43,816 nucleotides of DNA. Source: Clostridia bacterium (GTDB taxonomy: Bacteria > Bacillota > Clostridia > RGIG6154). The notes under the pieces are model-generated. The model was not told the origin of the DNA. It saw only the letters and a program-made list of their open reading frames with translations, and searched no databases. Positions within the stretch are counted from its first letter, which is position 1; each line of letters starts with the position of its first letter. Positions 4,543-40,382 of the stretch are shown here, in pieces. A program made the position numbers and the translations under genes. The stretch spans positions 1-43,816 of the forward strand of contig JAGAJK010000098.1 in the NCBI GenBank assembly GCA_017626145.1. The letters are read 5' to 3'.

Positions 4543-6636
4543 TTAATCTTCTTCATATGGAATCCATTTTGTTGCAGGCTTACGGATTGTATAATCATTT
4601 TCATACTCAATCTTAAATTCGTCCTTAAGACGGATATCACGGCTTGACGCACCGATTATAATTTCATATGTGCCTGATTCAACGTGCCAGTCACGAAGAC
4701 AGATATTGTAATACTGGAAATCCTTTTTATTTAATTCAAAAGTAACTTCCTTTGTTTCACCCGGTTCAAGAGCAACCTTTTCAAAGCCTCTTAATTCCTT
4801 AACAGGCTTAACAACTGTCGGGTTTACCTGACCAAGATAAAGCTGAACAATTTCCTTACCTGCCATATCACCAACGTTTTTAACCTTCATACTAACCTTA
4901 ATATTGATGTTGTCAGGGTCATCTGCAAAAGTTTGTGATAACTTAAGGTCTGAATATTCGTACTTGGTATATGAAAGACCGTGACCGAATGGGAACCATA
5001 TTTCTTCGGGATGAGTATCATAATATCTGTAGCCAACCATCAAACCTTCTGCAAAGTGAGTCTTATAGTTATCACCATATGGGTCCATATCACGTCTTAT
5101 TGTAATCGGGAATGTTTCTGCAAGCTTTGAGCATGGGTTTGCTTTACCGAAAATAATATCAGCAATAGCAGCACCGCCACCTTCACCGCTGTACCACATC
5201 TGAACAATACCCTTAACCTTATTTTCCCATCTTGTAGGAATGATTGCTGAACCTGTCTGCATAATAACAATTACATTTTTGCAGGCATTACAAGCCGATT
5301 CAATTGTTCCGTTAATGTAGTTAGGGAAGGAAATAACGTCTCTGTCCCAATATTCTGTTTCAACGTCAAGACCATAGTTATCGTGCGCAAAAACAATCAT
5401 AACGTCGTAATCGTTGCCAAGGTTACCCATGTTATTAATAGGTCCGATATCTTCTGCGCCCATGTAACCTGTCTTGAAGTATGTTCCGTAAATCGGGTCG
5501 TAGTGAACCTCAATACCTTCTTCTTCTGCACGTTGTCTTATATAGTCAATAGGCTTGTCAATCCAGTCATCATGAACAGGACTGTGGGAGCTTCCGCCAC
5601 CCATTATTGTAGGTCTTTCTGCACCGCAACCGAAGATAGCAATTTTTTTGTATTTCTTATTGGTAACAGGAAGAACATCATCGTCATTTTTAAGAAGAGT
5701 GATACCCTCGCGTGAAATCTGTCTTGCCATTTCGTGCTGCTGTTTTCTTGAATAGTTTTCAGGCTTGCCTTTCCACATATCCGTTACTTTAAATACGAAT
5801 TCTAAAATTCTCTGAATAGATGCGTCTAATTCGTCCATTGTAAGAGAACCTGCTTCAAGAGCACGCTTAATGGTCTTTACAATGTTTTTGTTACCCGGCA
5901 TATCAATGTCAAGACCTGCTTTTAATGACTTTATAGTGTCGTGAACAGCACCCCAGTCAGAAACAATCATACCGTCATAACCCATTTCTTCTCTTAAAAT
6001 ATCATTAAGAAGCCACTTGTTTTCAGCACAGTAAATACCGTTGATTTTATTGTAAGCACACATAACCGATGTCGGGTTTGAGTGTTCAAGAACGATTTCA
6101 TATACCTTTAAATAGTATTCTCTTAAAGCTCTTTCGTCAATTTCAGCACTTATTGTAAGTCTCTGAAATTCCTGAACATTACCTGCATAATGCTTTAAGC
6201 TTGCACCGATACCTTCTGATTCATAACCGTTAATTGCAGCAGCACCCAGGTGTCCCGAGAGATATGGGTCTTCGGAAAAATACTCAAAGTTTCTTCCGCC
6301 AAAGGGCGAACGCTTCATATTAACGCCGGGACCTAAAATAACATTTCTTTCTGCCATTCTTGAATCAAGGGCAAGAGATTTTGCGTAGTTATATGTAAGC
6401 TCCTTATCCCAGGTTGCACCAACTGTTGATGCGGTAGGATAGCAGGGTGAACCCCCCTCTACAACGTAATCTTTATCAAGTCTTCTTATACTGCTCGGCC
6501 CGTCAATTAAAGAAACAACGGGAATACCAAGCTCTTCAAAGCCTTTGGTAAACGAACCTGCACAGCCGGAAAGCATTAATGCCTTCTGTTCAACCGAAAG
6601 CTTGTCAACAAGCTTTTTAATATCTGCTTTAGTCAT
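4543..6636 (-). CDS. Glycoside hydrolase family 3 (beta-glucosidase/xylosidase-like)
   Basis: A 697-residue GH3 enzyme with no signal peptide, hence cytoplasmic. The N-terminal TIM-barrel domain carries IDGPSSIR, the ERNVILGPGVNMKRSPFGGRNFEYFSEDP block, the KHYAGN motif near 148 and the nucleophile Asp227 in GMIVSDWGAVHD. The C-terminal alpha/beta domain (about 310-540) contains the glycine-rich WYSGEGGGAAIADIIFGKANP segment, and a fibronectin-III-like domain (about 580-680) closes the protein. It probably removes non-reducing-end glucosyl or xylosyl residues from imported oligosaccharides. It has a strong ribosome site (AGGGGGA) and promoter. The divergent promoter region carries a palindrome also found before the GH39 operon. 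Confidence 0.92.
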   Translation of the reverse strand: MTKADIKKLVDKLSVEQKALMLSGCAGSFTKGFEELGIPVVSLIDGPSSIRRLDKDYVVEGGSPCYPTASTVGATWDKELTYNYAKSLALDSRMAERNVILGPGVNMKRSPFGGRNFEYFSEDPYLSGHLGAAAINGYESEGIGASLKHYAGNVQEFQRLTISAEIDERALREYYLKVYEIVLEHSNPTSVMCAYNKINGIYCAENKWLLNDILREEMGYDGMIVSDWGAVHDTIKSLKAGLDIDMPGNKNIVKTIKRALEAGSLTMDELDASIQRILEFVFKVTDMWKGKPENYSRKQQHEMARQISREGITLLKNDDDVLPVTNKKYKKIAIFGCGAERPTIMGGGSSHSPVHDDWIDKPIDYIRQRAEEEGIEVHYDPIYGTYFKTGYMGAEDIGPINNMGNLGNDYDVMIVFAHDNYGLDVETEYWDRDVISFPNYINGTIESACNACKNVIVIMQTGSAIIPTRWENKVKGIVQMWYSGEGGGAAIADIIFGKANPCSKLAETFPITIRRDMDPYGDNYKTHFAEGLMVGYRYYDTHPEEIWFPFGHGLSYTKYEYSDLKLSQTFADDPDNINIKVSMKVKNVGDMAGKEIVQLYLGQVNPTVVKPVKELRGFEKVALEPGETKEVTFELNKKDFQYYNICLRDWHVESGTYEIIIGASSRDIRLKDEFKIEYENDYTIRKPATKWIPYEED

Positions 6637-6674
6637 TGTTTTTCCCCCTATTTACAAGGTATTTTTACTACAAA

Positions 6675-6703
6675 AGTATATCATATTACATATTCAAAGT
6701 CAA
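6675..6703 (-). promoter_or_regulatory. Promoter of the GH3 gene
   Basis: On the minus strand TTGACT (6703-6698), 17-base spacer, TATACT (6680-6675), with a TGA extended -10. The 30 bases starting ATTGACTTTGA are close to those of the isomerase/GH39 promoter at 16045-16073, and a shared palindrome lies 12 bases upstream of the -35 box. Confidence 0.8.
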
Positions 6704-6712
6704 TATTTTATC

Positions 6713-6741
6713 TTGCGAATTAAATTCGTTTATGGTATACT
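6713..6741 (+). promoter_or_regulatory. Promoter of the ABC exporter gene
   Basis: TTGCGA (6713-6718), 17-base spacer, TATACT (6736-6741). The -35 box overlaps the 13-base palindrome at 6716-6728, so a protein bound there could repress this promoter while activating the divergent GH3 promoter. Confidence 0.7.
6716..6728. promoter_or_regulatory. Shared 13-base palindromic operator candidate, copy 1
   Basis: CGAATT-A-AATTCG is a perfect 6+1+6 inverted repeat. The identical 13-mer occurs at 16016-16028 before the isomerase/GH39 operon. In both places it lies 12-16 bases upstream of a TTGACT -35 box. A common sugar-responsive regulator is inferred; none is encoded in the window. Confidence 0.6.
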
Positions 6742-6773
6742 TATAATATTGATTTTTTATGGGAGCCCAAAAT

Positions 6774-8495
6774 ATGATTAAAAGATTCTTAAGTTATTAC
6801 AAACCGCATAAGATGCTTTTTGCATTTGATATGCTGGCATCAATTTTAGTTGCACTTATAACTGTTGTTTACCCTGTTTTTACAAGAACAATGCTCAATG
6901 ATTTTATACCCAACCGTAACTACCGTATGATAGTTGTTTTCGGGCTTTCTCTTCTTGCATTGTATTTTGTAAGAATGCTTCTTAATTTCTTTGTACAGTA
7001 CAAAGGACATATGATGGGTATAAGAATGCAGGCACAAATGCGAAGCGATTTGTTTGAACACGTTGAAAGGTTGCCCTTCAGCTTTTTCGATAACCATGAA
7101 ACAGGAAAAATAATGTCGAGGTTTACAACCGACCTTTTTGATATAAGCGAGCTTGCTCATCACGGCCCCGAAACGGTGCTTACAACCTCTGTGTCTGTAG
7201 TGGTTTCATTTTGTTATCTTGCTTCCATAAATCTGTGGCTTTCACTTATTATATTTGTATGCGTACCGTTTTTGGTAATAATATCAATGATTCTGCGAAA
7301 AAGAATGAAGCAGGCTTTTTCCGACAGTAAAAGTGCCGTAGCAAAAATAAATGCATCTTTAGAGAGCAGTATATCGGGAATAAGGGTTACAAAAGCCTTT
7401 ACAAATTACCAAAAAGAAAACGAAAAATTTCAGGAGGGTAATGAAGCGTTCAAGCTTGCCAATAAAGATGCGTATAAAACTATGGGGCAGTTCCATTCTT
7501 CAACTACTTTTATAACTGATGTATTTAATGTGGTTGTGTTGATTGCAGGCGGAATTTTTATGTATGAGGGACATATCAATTTTGCTGATTATTCGGCATT
7601 TATCGTTTCTGTAAATCTGTTTTTAAACCCCGTAAATACAATGATTCGTTTTACCGAACAGTTCCAGAACGGCTTTGCAGGTTTTGAACGTTTTGTCGAG
7701 ATTATGGAGACAGAGCCCGAATTTGAAAACAAAAATGCAGTTGAAGCTGAACGTTTCAAAGGTAACATTGAATTTAAAAACGTTGTTTACGGCTATGGAG
7801 ACGAAAAGGATGTACTTAATTCTGTAAGTCTTAATATAGGTTCAGGCGAAACTTATGCCCTTGTAGGACCAAGCGGCGGTGGTAAAACAACAATATGCCA
7901 TTTGATTCCGAAATTTTATAATCTCCGTGAAGGAGAAATTTTAATTGACGGTCAGAATATTGAAAACATAACCTTAAATTCCTTAAGACGAAATATAGGT
8001 ATCGTTCAGCAGGATATCTATCTTTTTAACGCAAGTATGAAGGATAATATCCTTTACGGCAGACTTGATGCAAGCTTTGAGGAGGTTGTGGATGCGGCAA
8101 AGCGTGCTAATATTCACGACTATATTATGTCACTTCCTGAGGGTTACGATACAGTAATAGGTGAAAGAGGTGTCCGTCTTTCAGGCGGTCAGAAGCAAAG
8201 ACTTTGCATTGCAAGAGTGTTCCTTAAGAACCCACCGATTCTTATTCTGGATGAAGCAACAAGTGCGCTCGACAATACAACCGAAATTTTAATACAGAAA
8301 TCTTTGGACGAATTATGCATAGGCAGAACAACGATAGTTGTTGCACACCGTCTTTCAACTATTAAAAATGCTGATAAAATTGCAGTTATTTCCGATGGCG
8401 ATATAACGGAACAAGGTACACATAACGAGCTTATGGATTTAAACGGAACTTACGCAAAACTCTACAATCAGCAATTCCGTGAAAGTGAAATATAG
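6774..8495 (+). CDS. ABC exporter, transmembrane domain fused to ATPase
   Basis: A 573-residue half-transporter of the MsbA/BmrA type that would act as a dimer in the membrane. Six membrane helices occupy about 1-300. The ATPase domain has Walker A GPSGGGKTT near 365, a Q-loop (VQQDIYLF), signature LSGGQ near 469, Walker B ILILDEATSALD near 488 and the switch His in VAHRLST. I place the start at the ATG at 6774, eight bases after GGGAG; an in-frame ATG at 6759 lacks a ribosome site. Substrate is unknown: exporters of this type move lipids, peptides or drugs. It lies divergent from GH3 and 99 bases upstream of the unrecognised gene at 8595. Confidence 0.92.
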   Translation: MIKRFLSYYKPHKMLFAFDMLASILVALITVVYPVFTRTMLNDFIPNRNYRMIVVFGLSLLALYFVRMLLNFFVQYKGHMMGIRMQAQMRSDLFEHVERLPFSFFDNHETGKIMSRFTTDLFDISELAHHGPETVLTTSVSVVVSFCYLASINLWLSLIIFVCVPFLVIISMILRKRMKQAFSDSKSAVAKINASLESSISGIRVTKAFTNYQKENEKFQEGNEAFKLANKDAYKTMGQFHSSTTFITDVFNVVVLIAGGIFMYEGHINFADYSAFIVSVNLFLNPVNTMIRFTEQFQNGFAGFERFVEIMETEPEFENKNAVEAERFKGNIEFKNVVYGYGDEKDVLNSVSLNIGSGETYALVGPSGGGKTTICHLIPKFYNLREGEILIDGQNIENITLNSLRRNIGIVQQDIYLFNASMKDNILYGRLDASFEEVVDAAKRANIHDYIMSLPEGYDTVIGERGVRLSGGQKQRLCIARVFLKNPPILILDEATSALDNTTEILIQKSLDELCIGRTTIVVAHRLSTIKNADKIAVISDGDITEQGTHNELMDLNGTYAKLYNQQFRESEI

Positions 8496-8594
8496 TTTTT
8501 GCAATATTTTTATAAAAATTGCAGGATTTATATATCTTTTATTTATAACATAATATATAATTGCTTTGAAAAACAAGAAAGGATATTAAATATT

Positions 8595-10346
8595 ATGGTA
8601 CATTCAATTGACAGTAAAGCAATAAGTGTCTTGAAAGAAAGTTTTATAAAGAAGGAAGTTGTTTTTAAGGACAATTTGCTTTTATTACAAGCTCAGCCGC
8701 ATACTGCACCCATTGCCGATTTGAAAGAATGCAGCGATGGTGTTGCAACAGCCCACTATTATTTTATTTCAAGATATTTTAACTTAATAGATGACGATAA
8801 AGCGGCAAGTATAGTATCTGAAATAAAAAAACTGCAGAACACAGATGAAAATTCCAATTATTTCGGATGTATGAGATGGTACCGTGAGGAAGAGTTTATA
8901 AGTGACAGTAACGGGGCTTTTTTCGTTCTTCTTCCCATAGCACTTACATATAAGCTTTGCAAAGATAAAATAACTCAAAGTGAAAAAGACGATATTTTTG
9001 AGCTTTTGGAAAAGGCAGCTATCTGGTTTGTACGCACAACGAAAGGTACATTAAATTACACTAATAAAATATTGAGTGATGGTGCAATGCTTACTCTTAT
9101 TGCCGAAATTACTCAAAAACATTATGCCGAATGTGAGGAATTCTGGAACAGATGGCACAATTATGCCGATAATCACGGCTGGGGCTGGGGAGAAAACACA
9201 AGTGACTGCTACAGCAGTATAATGCTTAATGCCTTAAATGTTACGATTCTTGCATCAAGGGGTGAAATTAAGGAAAAGGCAATAAAAAGACGCAGCATGC
9301 TTATTGATTATATTGCATTTCATGGCGGAAAAGAGTTTATTCCATCAATAAGAACTTATAATTTCAGTGCAGTTTCAAATTATGGCGGCGGTGTTCGTAA
9401 AGCATTTATGTGTCCCGAAAGAATAGAAACATACAGAAATATGTCGGATACTATAGTTATGTATGAAACAAAAGCAGAATGGAATGAGGAAATTAATTTA
9501 AGCTGTACAAGAAACGAAAATGTTTATGAAGATTCGTATGCGTATACCTGGAAAAATAACGATTTACGTCTTGGTAGTATAACGCATTTTCCTGTTATGC
9601 CATGTTCTTACCAGAATTCGGTTAAGCACAAAAACGGTTATGTGCAGACTTATGGTTTGGGCTGGCAATCGATGCCGGTCAGCGCTATGGTTGGCGATTT
9701 TGTATCCTTTTTGCGTATACGCACAAGAGTTGGAGAAAGCGAGCATTCTCATCCTGCGGTAAATAAACACAATGCGTATCTGTTTAACCGTTTGTTTGAG
9801 GATGGAAATATAACGGTCTTTTCTACCATTGCAAATCAGGATAATAATATTGCCGTTGTTTCAAGATATGCAAACAAATTGGCAAATACATCTTCCTTTA
9901 TTTGCGATGAATGGTGTGTATCCGATAAATCTGCAGAAATCTGTGAAAAAGAAATTAACGGGAAAATATGGTATATCGTTAAATCTGAAAGCGGAAGTAT
10001 TGCTCTGTGTCCATTAGATGGCATCGGCTGTGGTGACAGATGCAGGGGAGCCTTAACTACATACATTTCGGATAGCGACAACTTTAGAACCATTACAACA
10101 GAGTTTTATAGTGGCGAAAATAAAATGCTGTTTTCACCAAGACTTGAAAGTGTTTGGGTAATAGTTGCAATTAATCCCGATAGGGATGTTGAAGCCTGCT
10201 TAACGCAAATAACCATTACGGATGAAACGGTGCCCGACTTTGAGGTTTCACGAAGCTCTTGCTATAAAAAGCGCAGAATAGTATGTACTGACGGCAAGAG
10301 TAAAGCAGACCTTTTAATTGACCCGCTGAATCAAAACGATTTTTAA
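8595..10346 (+). CDS. Unrecognised protein, probable alpha/alpha-barrel plus beta-sandwich
   Basis: A 583-residue soluble protein with no signal peptide. The frame is open from a TTG at 8499, but the ATG at 8595 follows GAAAGG and gives a plausible N-terminus. The first half (about 1-270) is helical with spaced aromatic clusters (YFGCMRWYREEEF, NHGWGWGENTSDCY), and the second half (about 300-580) is beta-rich with SEHSHPAVNKHNAY. This two-part arrangement resembles polysaccharide lyases of the heparinase/alginate-lyase type and related glycosidases, but I cannot assign a family. It follows the ABC exporter by 99 bases and may be cotranscribed. Its context with GH3 hints at carbohydrate metabolism. 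Confidence 0.75.
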   Translation: MVHSIDSKAISVLKESFIKKEVVFKDNLLLLQAQPHTAPIADLKECSDGVATAHYYFISRYFNLIDDDKAASIVSEIKKLQNTDENSNYFGCMRWYREEEFISDSNGAFFVLLPIALTYKLCKDKITQSEKDDIFELLEKAAIWFVRTTKGTLNYTNKILSDGAMLTLIAEITQKHYAECEEFWNRWHNYADNHGWGWGENTSDCYSSIMLNALNVTILASRGEIKEKAIKRRSMLIDYIAFHGGKEFIPSIRTYNFSAVSNYGGGVRKAFMCPERIETYRNMSDTIVMYETKAEWNEEINLSCTRNENVYEDSYAYTWKNNDLRLGSITHFPVMPCSYQNSVKHKNGYVQTYGLGWQSMPVSAMVGDFVSFLRIRTRVGESEHSHPAVNKHNAYLFNRLFEDGNITVFSTIANQDNNIAVVSRYANKLANTSSFICDEWCVSDKSAEICEKEINGKIWYIVKSESGSIALCPLDGIGCGDRCRGALTTYISDSDNFRTITTEFYSGENKMLFSPRLESVWVIVAINPDRDVEACLTQITITDETVPDFEVSRSSCYKKRRIVCTDGKSKADLLIDPLNQNDF

Positions 10347-16015: not shown

Positions 16016-16028
16016 CGAATTAAATTCG
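16016..16028. promoter_or_regulatory. Shared 13-base palindromic operator candidate, copy 2
   Basis: CGAATTAAATTCG is identical to the site at 6716-6728 and lies 16 bases upstream of the -35 box of the isomerase/GH39 promoter. That position suits an activator. Confidence 0.6.
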
Positions 16029-16044
16029 AAATAGGTTTAATTTA

Positions 16045-16073
16045 TTGACTTTGATATATCATTATGATAAACT
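16045..16073 (+). promoter_or_regulatory. Promoter of the isomerase/GH39 operon
   Basis: TTGACT (16045-16050), 17-base spacer, TAAACT (16068-16073). The -10 is weak, consistent with a need for activation. The region closely resembles the GH3 promoter on the minus strand at 6675-6703. Confidence 0.65.
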
Positions 16074-16107: not shown

Positions 16108-16956
16108 ATGATAAATGGTTTAGCAATATGGCATTATCCGCACAGGTCACCAATTGAAAATGTGATTTTTTTTGCTGATAAAGGTTTTTCGAGTGTCAGT
16201 ATGCATGGAAATACTATGTACCGTTTGTGTGATGATAGTAATAGTGCTGCAGAGCTTGCAGCTGTTGTCAGGAAGAAAGGGATTGTTTTGACGGTGCATT
16301 ATAAATTGCCCGATACTCACAGCAAAGAAGATATCCAAGCGTTTGAAGTTGCTATAGACTGTATGGCGAAATGGCAAAAAGAATATGCTCTTTTGTCAAT
16401 TTTATCCTTTGATGTTCCGGAAAAAATAAGAGATAATATACAGCCGTACATCAGCTATGTCTTGCAATATGAGCAATTTTCTAAAGTGGCGGTTGAAGAT
16501 TTCGGTCTGACCGAGCAGGAAAAGAAACAGATAGAAGCTTTTAAAGAGGATAAAAGATTCGGTTTTCTTATTGATATCGGACATATGTATATAAGGATGC
16601 GCGGAGAAAATAAGCGGGAACTTACATTGTTTAAAAATCATCCGGAGGAGTGCCATGTAACAAGTAATCCCGGTTATAATGATTTTATGCAGGCTTTTGC
16701 AACAAAAGAGCTTCAGATTTTTGAAATTCACTTACATAACAATGACGGCGAAAATGATTTACATTACTTTTTAGATGACGGCACGCTTGATATGGAAATG
16801 ATTGCAAGGGTTTTGAGAGATATTAAATATGAAGGTGTGTTAACAATAGAAAGTGCACCAGGCTTTATGTTTGAATGCAAATATCCGGAGTCGGACGAAA
16901 GAATTCTTCAAACCTTTGAATTGTGGAAAAGATTAAGCGAGGCAACAAACATCTAA
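16108..16956 (+). CDS. Sugar phosphate isomerase/epimerase-like TIM barrel (AP-endonuclease-2 fold)
   Basis: A 282-residue xylose-isomerase-like TIM-barrel protein. Likely metal ligands are Glu130 (VEDFGL), Asp156 and His159 (DIGHMYI), His208 (EIHLHNNDG) and Glu248 (TIESAPG), the pattern of the AP_endonuc_2 domain family. Members isomerise or epimerise sugars or inositol derivatives; the substrate is not predictable. The gene is first in an operon with two GH39-like glycosidases, 43 bases upstream of the first, so it may process the sugar they release. GGAGG precedes the ATG. Confidence 0.82.
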   Translation: MINGLAIWHYPHRSPIENVIFFADKGFSSVSMHGNTMYRLCDDSNSAAELAAVVRKKGIVLTVHYKLPDTHSKEDIQAFEVAIDCMAKWQKEYALLSILSFDVPEKIRDNIQPYISYVLQYEQFSKVAVEDFGLTEQEKKQIEAFKEDKRFGFLIDIGHMYIRMRGENKRELTLFKNHPEECHVTSNPGYNDFMQAFATKELQIFEIHLHNNDGENDLHYFLDDGTLDMEMIARVLRDIKYEGVLTIESAPGFMFECKYPESDERILQTFELWKRLSEATNI

Positions 16957-16999: not shown

Positions 17000-18322
17000 A
17001 TGTCTGAAAAATTAAAACCGATTCACGGTGTAGGTAACGGTCCCGGTGTCAGAAATGTAGAAAGAAGAATTAATCTTTTTAAAGAAGCAGGAATTCAGTA
17101 TTCAAGAACCCACGACCCCGTAGGCGGCTTTGGTAGCGGTGAATTTGTAAATATTCATTGTATCTTCAAAAATTTTGATGCAGATGTAAATGACCCCGCT
17201 TCCTACGATTTTCAGATGACGGATATTTATATAAAAAATATAATTGATGCGGGAACAAAGGTTTTCTATCGTCTTGGTGAAACAATAGAAAACGGAGTTG
17301 TTGCAAATCCGCAGTTAAGAAAGTATACAATTGTTCCGAAGGACTTTCAGAAGTGGGCAGAAATCTGTGAACATATCGTAATGCACTATAACGAAGGCTG
17401 GAAGGATGGTTTTCATTATAATATAGAATACTGGGAAATCTGGGGCGAACCGGATAATATTGAATTGTGGGACGGAACTGACGAAGAGTATTTTGAAATG
17501 TACCGAATAGTAGCAAATCATCTTAAAAATCGTTTCCCTGATATAAAGGTAGGTGGCTACGGTTGTTCCGGTCTTTATGCGGCATTAAACCCCAATAACA
17601 ATAACGAATGGTTCAGAGCGTTGGTGCCGTATTTTAAAAATTTCATCAAATATGTAACATCAAACGAAACAAAAGCTCCTCTTGACTTTTTTTCGTGGCA
17701 TTGTTACACTAACAGTCTTGTGGAATTCGAGTATTGTATGAAATTTGCAAGAAGCTACCTTGATTCACAAGGTCTTACCCAAACAGAAAGTATTTTGGAA
17801 GAGTGGAACATTGGCGGCGAATGTGTTAACGGAGTATGGGAAAACTCGATTTTCAGAAAAGGGACAAAAGCTGCAGCTTTTGTTGGCTGTGTGTTTGCTC
17901 TTATGAACAAAAACGGCGTAGATAAAGCCAACTACTATGATGCAGAAGCAACAAGAGTAAACTGGTGCGGTTTGTTCGATGTGTATACAGGAAATCCGTG
18001 TAAACCATATTTTGTTTTTAAAGCCTATAATGAGCTTTACAAAATGGGCGAAATGTTTGATTTCGGCATTGAAGACGATGGTTCTCTTTATTCAATCGGT
18101 GCTGTATCAAACGATGAAAAGGCATTGATGATTTCAAATTATAAAGGTGTTAAGTATAGGGTAAATATTCCTGCAGAAAAAATTTCAGGTTGTAAGATGG
18201 CGGAAATTTATACTATTGATGAAAACTATGATTTGGAACTTACGGAAAAAATAACTCTTGGAAATAACGGTGCTGAATTAACCATTAATACCAATTCTGT
18301 TATTTTGGTAAAATTCAGATAA
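17000..18322 (+). CDS. GH39-like glycoside hydrolase, copy 1 (Asn of NEP motif replaced by Gly)
   Basis: A 440-residue cytoplasmic clan GH-A enzyme resembling GH39 beta-xylosidases/alpha-iduronidases: TIM barrel followed by a small beta domain (about 360-440). The acid/base motif, normally Asn-Glu-Pro, reads YWEIWGEPDN, so Glu150 is kept but residue 149 is Gly (codon GGC, 17444-17446). The nucleophile candidate is Glu268 (ILEEWNIGG). The adjacent copy has the canonical Asn. Because that Asn normally contacts the sugar 2-hydroxyl, copy 1 may have altered substrate preference or low activity. Ribosome site GGAGG. The paralogue follows 22 bases downstream. Confidence 0.85.
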   Translation: MSEKLKPIHGVGNGPGVRNVERRINLFKEAGIQYSRTHDPVGGFGSGEFVNIHCIFKNFDADVNDPASYDFQMTDIYIKNIIDAGTKVFYRLGETIENGVVANPQLRKYTIVPKDFQKWAEICEHIVMHYNEGWKDGFHYNIEYWEIWGEPDNIELWDGTDEEYFEMYRIVANHLKNRFPDIKVGGYGCSGLYAALNPNNNNEWFRALVPYFKNFIKYVTSNETKAPLDFFSWHCYTNSLVEFEYCMKFARSYLDSQGLTQTESILEEWNIGGECVNGVWENSIFRKGTKAAAFVGCVFALMNKNGVDKANYYDAEATRVNWCGLFDVYTGNPCKPYFVFKAYNELYKMGEMFDFGIEDDGSLYSIGAVSNDEKALMISNYKGVKYRVNIPAEKISGCKMAEIYTIDENYDLELTEKITLGNNGAELTINTNSVILVKFR

Positions 18323-18344
18323 TTTATATAATGAGGTGATTTTA

Positions 18345-19667
18345 ATGAAAAAAATGCTTAATCCTGTTCACGGCGTAGGTAATGGTCCGGGAGTAAGAAA
18401 TGTTGAAAGAAGAATTAATCTTTTTAAAGAAGCAGGAATACAGTATTCAAGAACTCATGACCCCGTAGGCGGCTTTGGTAGCGGTGAATTTGTAAATATT
18501 CACTGTATCTTCAAAAATTTTGATGCCGATGTAAATGACCCCGCTTCCTACGATTTTCAGATGACAGATATTTATATAAAAAATATAATTGATGCAGGAA
18601 CCAAGGTTATATACAGACTTGGTGAAACAATAGAAAACGGAGTTGTAGCTCATCCTGAACTTAGAAAATACTGTAAGGTTCCGGCAGATTTTCAGAAATG
18701 GGCAGAAATCTGTGAACATATCGTAATGCATTATAACGAAGGCTGGAATAACGGCTTCCATTACAATATAGAATACTGGGAAATATGGAACGAACCCGAT
18801 AATATAGAAATGTGGGACGGAACAGATGAGGAATTTTATGAAATGTACCGTATTACCGCAAATCATCTTAAAAACCGTTTCCCGAACATAAAAATAGGCG
18901 GATACGGCTGTTCGGGTCTTTATGCGGCACTTAATCCTGATAACAATAATGAATGGTTTAAAGCTTTGGTTCCTTACTTTGAAAACTTTGTTAAATACAT
19001 AACTGCACCCGAAACAAAAGCTCCTTTTGATTTCTTCTCATGGCATTGCTATACAAGATATCTTGAAGAATTTGAACATTGTATGAAGTTTGCAAGAAGC
19101 TACCTTGATTCTCACGGACTTTCTGAAACGGAAAGTATTTTAACGGAATGGAATGTTGGCGGTGAATGTATAGACGGAGTATGGGAAAGCTCAATTTTCA
19201 GAAAAGGACCTAAAGCGGCGTCATTTGTTGCAGGCGTTTTCTCACTTATGAATCAGTATGATGTAGATAAGAGTAATTATTACGATGCTGAAGCAACAAG
19301 AGTAAGCTGGTGCGGACTTTTTGATGTGTATACAGGCAATCCCTGTAAGCCTTATTTTGTATTTAAAGCATATAACGAGCTTTACAATATGGAAAATAAA
19401 TTTGATTTTGAAATTGAGGACAGAGGTGCTCTTTATTCAATCGGTGCCGAAAAAGATGGTGAAAAAGCATTGATGCTCTCAAATTATAAGGGGGTTAATT
19501 ACAGAGTTAATATTCCTGTAGAAAAAATTGAAGGCTGCAAAATGGCTGAAATTTATGCAATTGACGAAAATCACGACCTTGAGCTTACAGAAAAAGTTAT
19601 TTTAGGTAAAACCGGTCTTGAGGTAAGTGTTAATACAAATACGGTTATTTATATTAAATTCAGATAA
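18345..19667 (+). CDS. GH39-like glycoside hydrolase, copy 2
   Basis: A 440-residue paralogue of the preceding gene, about four-fifths identical by hand alignment and colinear without gaps; residues 9-87 are identical. It has the canonical YWEIWNEPDN (Asn149, acid/base Glu150) and ILTEWNVGG (nucleophile candidate Glu268), and no signal peptide. A GTG at 18336 extends the frame by three codons, but GAGGTGA at 18333-18339 is the ribosome site for the ATG at 18345. A beta-xylosidase-like role in the cytoplasm is likely, but GH39 also includes iduronidases and other specificities. Confidence 0.87.
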   Translation: MKKMLNPVHGVGNGPGVRNVERRINLFKEAGIQYSRTHDPVGGFGSGEFVNIHCIFKNFDADVNDPASYDFQMTDIYIKNIIDAGTKVIYRLGETIENGVVAHPELRKYCKVPADFQKWAEICEHIVMHYNEGWNNGFHYNIEYWEIWNEPDNIEMWDGTDEEFYEMYRITANHLKNRFPNIKIGGYGCSGLYAALNPDNNNEWFKALVPYFENFVKYITAPETKAPFDFFSWHCYTRYLEEFEHCMKFARSYLDSHGLSETESILTEWNVGGECIDGVWESSIFRKGPKAASFVAGVFSLMNQYDVDKSNYYDAEATRVSWCGLFDVYTGNPCKPYFVFKAYNELYNMENKFDFEIEDRGALYSIGAEKDGEKALMLSNYKGVNYRVNIPVEKIEGCKMAEIYAIDENHDLELTEKVILGKTGLEVSVNTNTVIYIKFR

Positions 19668-37607: not shown

Positions 37608-39554
37608 ATGAATAAAATGTACGAAGGCTTTGAACCTGTAAAGCTTGAAAAGATTGACGGCGGTGTAAGGCTGTGTGTTTGGGAAAGAACATATGAATTT
37701 GTAAATTCATTTACACCGGTAAAGGTAACCGTTTTCGGTGAAGATGTTCTTTCTGCACCAATAAAATTAAATGCTCATTTTGAGTATGGCGAAGTTAAAG
37801 AATGGAAGGATTTTACATATTTAATTCACGAGGTTACCGATGAAAAGGTGACAGTTCTTGTTAGCGCAGGCTGTGAAAATGTTATTGGTAATGCAACAGT
37901 AACTATTGAACCGGATGGCTTTGTAAAGGCTGATTTCCGTCTTATGAATTACTGGTTCCTTACCCGTGACAATTCAAAATTTGCCCGTCTTCAGGGTCTT
38001 GATTTAACAGTAGATATTAAGAGTGAATATTCTGAGTTATTCCATTTCTGGCCAAATGCGAAATCTTCAATTCTTCCTGCATCTGTATTTAATGCAGGTT
38101 CAACAGAAAACGCAAGCTTTTGCTTTAAACCTTATGTGTGGACAGGTAACGCAAAAGCAGGTCTCGGTCTCTTTTTCGGTGATTCTGCCGAATATTTTGA
38201 AGTGTATGATGAAAATAAGTATATCGAAGTAAAAAAAGGCGAGGAGTCAACGCAGATTAAACTTCATATGCTTGACCATATGCCGTTTAACTGGATAGAG
38301 CAGGGCGACGATAAATGGGTAGAAACATTGGAAACAAAGTTCTTTACATTTGGTTTTCAGGCAACTCCCGTTAAGCCTATGCCAAAGAAACGTGAAGAAT
38401 TTAATAAAATTACCCACGTTCTTCATACAAGGCTTGATATAATTGATAAAGAAGGTCTTTATGAAGATGAAATTTACGAAAGAGCTGCAAAGGCAGGAAC
38501 AAAAATATTTGCATTCCACGAGGACTGGACTGCAATTCAGAATTACGGATATCCGTTTGACCCTGAAAGATTTAAAAGAATCGTTAAAAAGTGTCACGAC
38601 CTTGGTATGAAGGTTATGGTGTATTTTGGTTACGAATATTCATCTTTAGCACCTGATTTCAATGAAAAAGCACACGACTATATTATAAAAATGCCATCAG
38701 GTAACTTTGCCGGAGGATGGCAGAGAAATCCGCTTCAGAGAGCATTTATGACCTGTTATAACAGCGGTTATGCAGATGTTTTAATTGAAAGAGTTAAGTA
38801 TGTAATGGATGAACTTGGTGTTGACGGACTTTATACCGACAGCACATATATTCCTCACGATTGTGCAAATACATCTCACGGTTGCGGATACTATGACAGA
38901 GAGGGTAATCTTCAGCCAACCTTTACAGTTCTTGCAACAAGAGAGCTGGTTAAAAAGCTTTATCAGACAGTTCACGAAAGAGGCGGTTTTATCGACTCAC
39001 ATCAGAGTGCCTGCTGTATTATGCCTGTTCTTTCTTTCTGTGACTGTTACCTTGACGGTGAAAATATTCAGGGGCAGGTATTTAAAAAGCAATTACGTCT
39101 TGATGCATTCCAGTGTGAATATGCAGGTCGAAACTGGGGACTTCCTGCAAACTTCCTTGCATACACAAACGATAACTTTACCATGGAAAATATGCTTGCA
39201 ATTCCTATTATTCATAATGTAATGCCAAGAGTATGCCATCATAATGATATGGAATATATGGGTAAGGTATGGAAAATCTTCGATGAGTATGAGCTTCACG
39301 ATGCACCTTTTGTTTACTACTATGAAAACGATGAAGTAACGGCAAAAGGCGATGCATACGTTTCGTTGTACAAAGGTAAGGAAACTATTGCGGTTGTATG
39401 TAACCTCGATGACACAAGAGAGGAGACCCCGATAGTTGGTGACTATAGAAAAGCAACCGAGTTAATGAGCGGTAAAACCTATGATTTTGTCAGTGGCGAA
39501 GCTTTAGTTGAAACAGGAAACGTAAAATTCAGGATATTCAAGCTTGAAAAATAA
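37608..39554 (+). CDS. Unassigned glycoside-hydrolase-like TIM-barrel protein
   Basis: A 648-residue cytoplasmic protein with three parts: an N-terminal beta-sandwich (about 1-260), a TIM barrel (about 265-560) and a short C-terminal beta domain (about 570-648). The barrel has VMVYFGYEYSSLAPDF, then GVDGLYTDSTYIPHDC, in which the Asp of LYTDS at a strand end is a likely catalytic acid as in clan GH-D-type enzymes. It resembles DUF6067/GH123-like proteins, but I cannot assign a CAZy family. Its stop is 18 bases from the esterase start. GGAGGGATG precedes the ATG by seven bases. Confidence 0.75.
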   Translation: MNKMYEGFEPVKLEKIDGGVRLCVWERTYEFVNSFTPVKVTVFGEDVLSAPIKLNAHFEYGEVKEWKDFTYLIHEVTDEKVTVLVSAGCENVIGNATVTIEPDGFVKADFRLMNYWFLTRDNSKFARLQGLDLTVDIKSEYSELFHFWPNAKSSILPASVFNAGSTENASFCFKPYVWTGNAKAGLGLFFGDSAEYFEVYDENKYIEVKKGEESTQIKLHMLDHMPFNWIEQGDDKWVETLETKFFTFGFQATPVKPMPKKREEFNKITHVLHTRLDIIDKEGLYEDEIYERAAKAGTKIFAFHEDWTAIQNYGYPFDPERFKRIVKKCHDLGMKVMVYFGYEYSSLAPDFNEKAHDYIIKMPSGNFAGGWQRNPLQRAFMTCYNSGYADVLIERVKYVMDELGVDGLYTDSTYIPHDCANTSHGCGYYDREGNLQPTFTVLATRELVKKLYQTVHERGGFIDSHQSACCIMPVLSFCDCYLDGENIQGQVFKKQLRLDAFQCEYAGRNWGLPANFLAYTNDNFTMENMLAIPIIHNVMPRVCHHNDMEYMGKVWKIFDEYELHDAPFVYYYENDEVTAKGDAYVSLYKGKETIAVVCNLDDTREETPIVGDYRKATELMSGKTYDFVSGEALVETGNVKFRIFKLEK

Positions 39555-39572
39555 AGATACGGAGAATTAATT

Positions 39573-40382
39573 ATGATATTTAAAAGAATCCCACTTGATA
39601 ATGAAGATGAAAATATATATCTGGATGCTTATATTGCGGACCCAACAGAAGGGTTTACCAGAAACGCAATTTTAGTTATTCCCGGTGGGGGGTACGGTTT
39701 TGTTTGTTCAGGTCGTGAAGGCGAGCCTGTTGCTATGGCATTTATGCCATACGGATACAACGCATTTGTTCTTCATTATTCTGTTTCATCTGTAAATAAC
39801 AGAACCTTTCCTTCACAGCTTATTGAAGCATCGAAGGCAATGAAGCATATAAAAGATAATGCCAATGAGTATAACATCGACCCTGAAAGAGTGTTTGCTA
39901 CAGGCTTTTCAGCCGGTGGTCACCTTTGTGCAAGTCTTGGAATACTGTGGCATTTAAAGGAAATATATGATGCGGTCGATATGCCGTACGGCTACAACAA
40001 ACCTACAGGAATTATGCCTATATATCCGGTAATAACATCAAACGGTCACGTGGGAACATTTTTTAATCTGTTTGGCACACAGAATCTTACAGATGAACAG
40101 ATTTATCAGGGAAGCTTAGAAAATCACGTAACAAAGGATTCAAGTCCTGCTTACATAGTTCATACTTCAAATGACCAGGCAGTAACTGTTAAGAATTCCC
40201 TTAAGCTTGCAAATGCCTATGCGGATGCAGGTATGATGTTTGAGATGCACATTTATCCCGATGCACCTCACGGAATTGCTCTGGCGAATAAAATAACAAA
40301 AGGCAGTAACGAAAAGTTTGATAACAAAGAGATCGCAAAATGGGTTGAACATGCTGTAGCATGGGCAGAAACAATAAAATAG
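39573..40382 (+). CDS. Alpha/beta-hydrolase esterase, acetyl-xylan-esterase-like
   Basis: A 269-residue cytoplasmic alpha/beta hydrolase of the BD-FAE/acetylxylan esterase type. The oxyanion segment IPGGGYGFVCSGREGEP is followed by nucleophile Ser113 in GFSAGGH. Asp201 (HTSNDQAV) and His233 (APHGIAL) complete the triad. It probably deacetylates imported acetylated oligosaccharides before the preceding hydrolase acts. The pair forms an operon ending at the terminator near 40429. Ribosome site CGGAG. Confidence 0.88.
   Translation: MIFKRIPLDNEDENIYLDAYIADPTEGFTRNAILVIPGGGYGFVCSGREGEPVAMAFMPYGYNAFVLHYSVSSVNNRTFPSQLIEASKAMKHIKDNANEYNIDPERVFATGFSAGGHLCASLGILWHLKEIYDAVDMPYGYNKPTGIMPIYPVITSNGHVGTFFNLFGTQNLTDEQIYQGSLENHVTKDSSPAYIVHTSNDQAVTVKNSLKLANAYADAGMMFEMHIYPDAPHGIALANKITKGSNEKFDNKEIAKWVEHAVAWAETIK

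Follow-up and report, generated by a model that had tools for sequence, protein, structure and literature searches.

LacI is the textbook repressor, and almost all members of its family are believed to grip a central CpG of the DNA with a hinge helix. In known structures, the hinge-helix leucine inserts into this central CG (PMC2978694). A survey of LacI-family regulators reported a central CG in 1173 of 1303 motifs; 1251 of the 1303 regulators had palindromes of even length (16-22 nt), in most cases centred on CG, and 4% had odd ones (17, 19 or 21 nt) (PMC4052901). CcpA, a LacI-family protein, acts as an activator at cre boxes upstream of the -35 and as a repressor where the boxes cover the promoter (PMC3463425).

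The system described here resembles CcpA/cre at Bacillus subtilis ackA, pta and ilvB in its LacI-family protein, in the position of the palindrome ahead of the -35, in promoter-proximal activation (here predicted) and in a link to carbon metabolism (PMC3463425). CcpA, however, is a global regulator dependent on HPr-Ser-P; it has a hinge, and its cre boxes contain CpG, whereas hinge and CpG are missing here. Local LacI-family sugar regulators are alike in autoregulation and in their sugar transporter and glycosidase targets (PMC4052901), but mostly use even CG-centred palindromes instead of the odd CGAAN5TTCG without central CG. The nearest known precedent for a hinge-less candidate is CytR of gamma-proteobacteria, in which a flexible linker replaces the ordered hinge and the operators deviate from the LacI norm (PMC3454398). 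CytR recognizes octamer half-sites of variable spacing and works with CRP, unlike the tight palindrome found here, in which CGAA and TTCG are 4-5 bp apart. Literature searches of limited scope returned no description of a hinge-less LacI subfamily or of the exact motif words. For the two palindromes analysed below we propose, with a probability of roughly 0.75, one regulon under a hinge-less LacI protein, which most likely activates glycan genes from upstream sites.

The window, i.e. the whole 44-kb stretch of DNA under analysis, contains CGAATTAAATTCG at 6716-6728 and again at 16016-16028, exactly where the first-pass annotation had placed two identical palindromes. By pattern search of the 2.78 Mb assembly, CGAATTAAATTCG was found exactly twice, both times inside the window, and not scattered through coding DNA, the outcome that had been named as a refutation. 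The genome was analysed through pattern searches and selected stretches. Expected counts were 0.002-0.004 per window and 0.11-0.27 per genome (range over Markov orders). Among relatives, the word was present in 5 of 98, as scattered single copies only. A bare 13-mer repeat is in itself unremarkable, as 377 different 13-mers recur within the window. Near matches with two mismatches showed no genome-wide enrichment, and CGAATTAAATTCG is thus not an enriched loose motif. Raw counts of CGAAN5TTCG sites likewise gave no excess over a reversed-pattern control; the signal is seen only in position, spacing and gene context. Both null results would suit a repeat that arose by chance or as a by-product of A+T-rich promoter DNA. 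This is very improbable given the low expectation for the exact word (0.1-0.3 per genome), the 12-bp spacing peak and the motif's repeated association with the same downstream gene families in several other families. It is the combination of palindrome, promoter geometry and comparative evidence that makes the repeat real.

Both copies are located upstream of recognizable promoters (Table 1). The minus strand towards GH3 reads CGAATTTAATTCG-N12-TTGACT-17-TATACT, and the plus strand towards the isomerase reads CGAATTAAATTCG-N16-TTGACT-17-TAAACT. The measured distances of 12 bp and 16 bp agree with the 12-16 bases claimed in the first-pass annotation; its hand count of about 24 identical promoter positions out of 30 was corrected to 22 of 30. 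Operator 2, at 16 instead of 12 bp, is placed on a different helix face, which counts against the main reading. As had also been claimed, operator 1 overlaps a possible -35 of the divergent ABC gene, where TTGCGA-17-TATACT can be read as a promoter. The likelier start of the ABC gene is an ATG at 6774, preceded by GGGAG. GH3 would likely be activated by the regulator, as judged from the fit of its promoter to the conserved arrangement of an operator 12 bp from the -35. The ABC gene may be repressed, given the overlap of the palindrome with its -35.

Table 1. Sites, promoter elements and genes considered in this analysis. Positions are those of the window unless a contig (C) is given.
Feature	Position	Strand	Remarks
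Operator 1 (predicted), CGAATTAAATTCG	6716..6728	.	Promoter site of GH3; intergenic, GH3 on the minus and ABC exporter on the plus strand
GH3 promoter -35, TTGACT	6698..6703	-	12 bp from operator 1
GH3 promoter -10, TATACT	6675..6680	-	17-bp spacer
GH3 glycosidase, putative target	4543..6636	-	Glyco_hydro_3, Glyco_hydro_3_C and Fn3-like domains
ABC gene possible -35, TTGCGA	6713..6718	+	Overlaps operator 1
ABC gene possible -10, TATACT	6736..6741	+	17-bp spacer
ABC transporter, possible repressed divergent gene	6759..8495	+	Domain scan
Operator 2 (predicted), CGAATTAAATTCG	16016..16028	.	Promoter site of isomerase and two GH39 genes
Operon promoter -35, TTGACT	16045..16050	+	16 bp from operator 2
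Operon promoter -10, TAAACT	16068..16073	+	17-bp spacer
Xylose-isomerase-like TIM barrel protein	16108..16956	+	First gene of putative target operon; PF01261
GH39 enzyme	17000..18322	+	PF01229; six homologues elsewhere behind same motif
Second, duplicated GH39 enzyme	18336..19667	+	Domain scan
Promoter site	C2:45830		LacI-family gene and MFS transporter
Promoter site	C26:30221		GH35, divergent from response-regulator/histidine-kinase pair
Promoter site	C73:27136		GH28-like beta-helix gene
Promoter site	C68:14849		645-aa protein without Pfam match

The best NCBIfam model for the GH3 protein was exo-alpha-L-arabinopyranosidase, with a score under its cut-off. A search of named genomes with the GH3 protein returned no relatives, and the GH3/ABC intergenic region had no BLAST matches among plasmids. 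Downstream of the ABC gene, a 615-aa protein (8499-10346) had no Pfam or NCBIfam match. The two GH39 genes (17000-19667) are adjacent and closely similar, i.e. a tandem duplication. At 37608-40382, a gene for a GH123/GHL6-like protein precedes one for a BD-FAE-type esterase, without the operator motif.

CGAATTAAATTCG is an instance of the wider motif CGAAN5TTCG, and further sites in the same genome were reached via one-mismatch copies with the same surroundings. CGAAWWWWWTTCG was found in nine copies, six of them at promoters (Table 1). Four of these six are exactly 12 bp from a TTGA -35; the other distances are 16 bp (isomerase), 17 bp (GH28-like gene) and 18 bp (GH35 site, towards the response regulator). 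The three remaining copies were rejected, two being coding (L032 on C36 and L009 on C75) and one intergenic without promoter geometry (L033 on C39).

No transcription factor was found among the scanned window proteins. Outside the window, a LacI-family gene (G000:C2:44748-45755) is encoded together with an MFS transporter and has its own motif site in front. That both palindromes are operators of one shared regulator, as proposed in the first-pass annotation, is strongly supported, and this specific candidate is likely to be the regulator of both. The predicted protein has an N-terminal LacI helix-turn-helix (PF00356, 28.1 bits, cut-off 27) and a C-terminal sugar-binding, periplasmic-binding-like domain (PF13377, 104.3 bits; PF00532, 51.4 bits). 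Between its domains the linker reads DEKRKRRVEKNRKKG; as an alignment of 21 relatives also shows, this lacks the hinge motif P-N-x-x-A-R-x-L, which is typical of the family though not universal in it. Its best NCBIfam match, the CytR equivalog model, reached 155.5 bits against a cut-off of 436, and the CcpA equivalog model 110.3 bits against 442.35. The associated motif CGAAN5TTCG is an odd palindrome without central CG, in place of the even CG-centred form typical of LacI. By its domains the candidate is a LacI-family protein, and by hinge and operator a variant. Relatives of it in other families likewise carry sites in front of their genes; a homologue in G105 (45% identical) has the identical 13-mer of the window before its gene, plus a second site. 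In G109, by contrast, the gene of the homologue is not preceded by a site, which counts against the main reading.

The hinge motif is absent throughout the candidate's clade. Where its hosts are named, they are for the most part uncultured Clostridia and Oscillospiraceae of ruminant, deer and horse guts. The association of hinge and operator was counted in two samples. Sample 1 comprised 391 genomes of the class, from which 76 N-termini were read; the automatic split into 31 hinge-less and 45 hinge-bearing proteins became 29/47, with L057 and L137 being visibly hinged by eye. CGAAN4-5TTCG was present before the own gene in 16 of the 29 hinge-less proteins vs 0 of the 47 hinge-bearing ones, and CpG-centred palindromes were found at 25 hinge-bearing proteins. 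Sample 2 consisted of named records and partly overlaps sample 1. Its automatic split was 43/37, and the hinge-less clade counted here comprises 31 proteins that are 30-47% identical (L209-L238 plus L251). The motif preceded the own gene in 27 of these 31 vs 0 of 49 hinge-bearing proteins. Fisher p values were 6e-9 (sample 1) and 2e-17 (sample 2), with kinship uncorrected and counts non-independent. Homologues that keep the hinge often have AAACGTTT-like, CpG-centred palindromes instead. Since the hinge-helix leucine inserts into the central CG, a joint loss of hinge and CG is mechanistically coherent. Sites, geometry, conservation, hinge loss and the hinge-operator association are all read from the sequence.

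Site-to-promoter spacing was counted in 24 regulator-bearing genomes, using promoters with at least 9 of 12 consensus matches within 25 bp of CGAAN5TTCG. The distance was exactly 12 bp at 30 of 65 good promoters, with at most 5 promoters at every other distance (p ~3e-25 for the 12-bp peak vs a uniform null). A distance of 16 bp forms a minor recurring class, including two sites in G001. A fixed spacing, as expected of activators upstream of the -35, is thus present, and minority classes remain. The majority of CGAAWWNWWTTCG sites in G014 and G017, and roughly half in G105, lie inside genes and were discarded.

In 24 control genomes, among the listed matches inspected, 12-bp sites with good promoters were found only in G012. 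This assembly, which is 85% complete, has four CGAAN5TTCG promoter sites (two N12 and two N16), and its sole profile hit has a normal hinge, which counts against the main reading. Either the regulator is missing from the incomplete assembly or another protein uses the sites. A different regulator could also be at work more generally, e.g. the YesN-type response regulator whose gene diverges from GH35 on C26; this gene adjoins one of the six sites, and G012 has sites with no hinge-less LacI detected. In many families of the class the motif nevertheless accompanies the hinge-less LacI gene, and AraC-type regulators usually bind direct repeats, which speaks against the YesN-type protein. We regard this explanation as improbable.

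The strict 12-bp spacing suggests activation of the targets, comparable to that by CcpA from cre boxes ahead of the -35. Alternatively, the hinge-less LacI protein might bind as an ordinary sugar-released repressor, with 12 bp being a preferred repressor position. Most LacI-family proteins repress, and in the wider clade a self-site often directly adjoins the -35 or overlaps it (1-9 bp). Several self-sites are joined by a second palindrome, CGAAAATTTTCG, in the vicinity of the ribosome-binding site. Repressor sites are usually placed variably, either over the promoter or downstream of it, and the placement of 30 of 65 sites exactly 12 bp upstream of the -35 differs from this; we consider the repressor explanation unlikely, if clearly less so than a different regulator. 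Own genes may be controlled differently from targets: distances of wider-clade self-sites to the -35 vary from 1 to 28 bp, and autoregulation may therefore be of opposite sign to target activation. This variation fits autorepression at least as well as activation. Upstream of the LacI genes at L043, L044 and L075, the even palindrome CGAAAATTTTCG is found 23-25 bp ahead of the start codon, in the region of the ribosome-binding site and in addition to the upstream site. Autorepression from this position is possible.

First genes behind 20 CGAAN5TTCG promoter sites in other genomes were surveyed for conserved targets. They included six GH39 enzymes (34-41% identical to the GH39 of the window) and four MFS proteins that share 44-47% identity with the LacI-linked MFS (five with that of G109), as well as one GH28-like and one 645-aa homologue. 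GH39 homologues of other families in the class are thus also preceded by the motif; for them a lack of conservation, named beforehand as a second refuting outcome, was not observed. Other first genes encode a GH10 enzyme and a GDSL esterase with carbohydrate-binding domain, and a GH78-type rhamnosidase lies behind the motif in G105. In G308, genes for MFS, LacI and 645-aa proteins follow in a row behind one site. GH3 was not found behind motif sites in other genomes, which counts against the regulon reading. The set of enzymes behind the sites points to plant cell-wall glycans. The family of about 645 aa, which has no Pfam match, recurs behind the operator (L031:6842-8779, L202:188-2116); its members are probably undescribed glycan-active enzymes.

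According to the preferred reading of an activating hinge-less LacI protein, the product of G000:C2:44748-45755 would bind both window palindromes as operators. These would be short CGAA-N5-TTCG palindromes lacking the central CpG gripped by LacI hinge helices. Binding would centre on about -54, with the site 12 bp (in a minority about 16) away from the -35. Upon sensing a sugar, the bound protein would most likely activate promoters of plant-polysaccharide glycosidases and of the transporter, and at the GH3/ABC divergence the ABC -35 would lie under it as well. What we infer from these patterns is binding, activation, the effector and ABC repression. In a widespread, so far undescribed LacI subfamily of gut Clostridia, hinge loss, the operator change to CGAAN5TTCG and a switch to a dedicated 12-bp activator of plant-glycan genes may have gone together, a proposal for which we see even odds.

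A natural hinge-less clade with a matching operator and a fixed promoter position would provide a clean natural test of hinge function. The transferable rule CGAAN5TTCG-N12-TTGA could be used to predict plant-glycan genes and their transporter in uncultured Clostridia of ruminant and horse guts.
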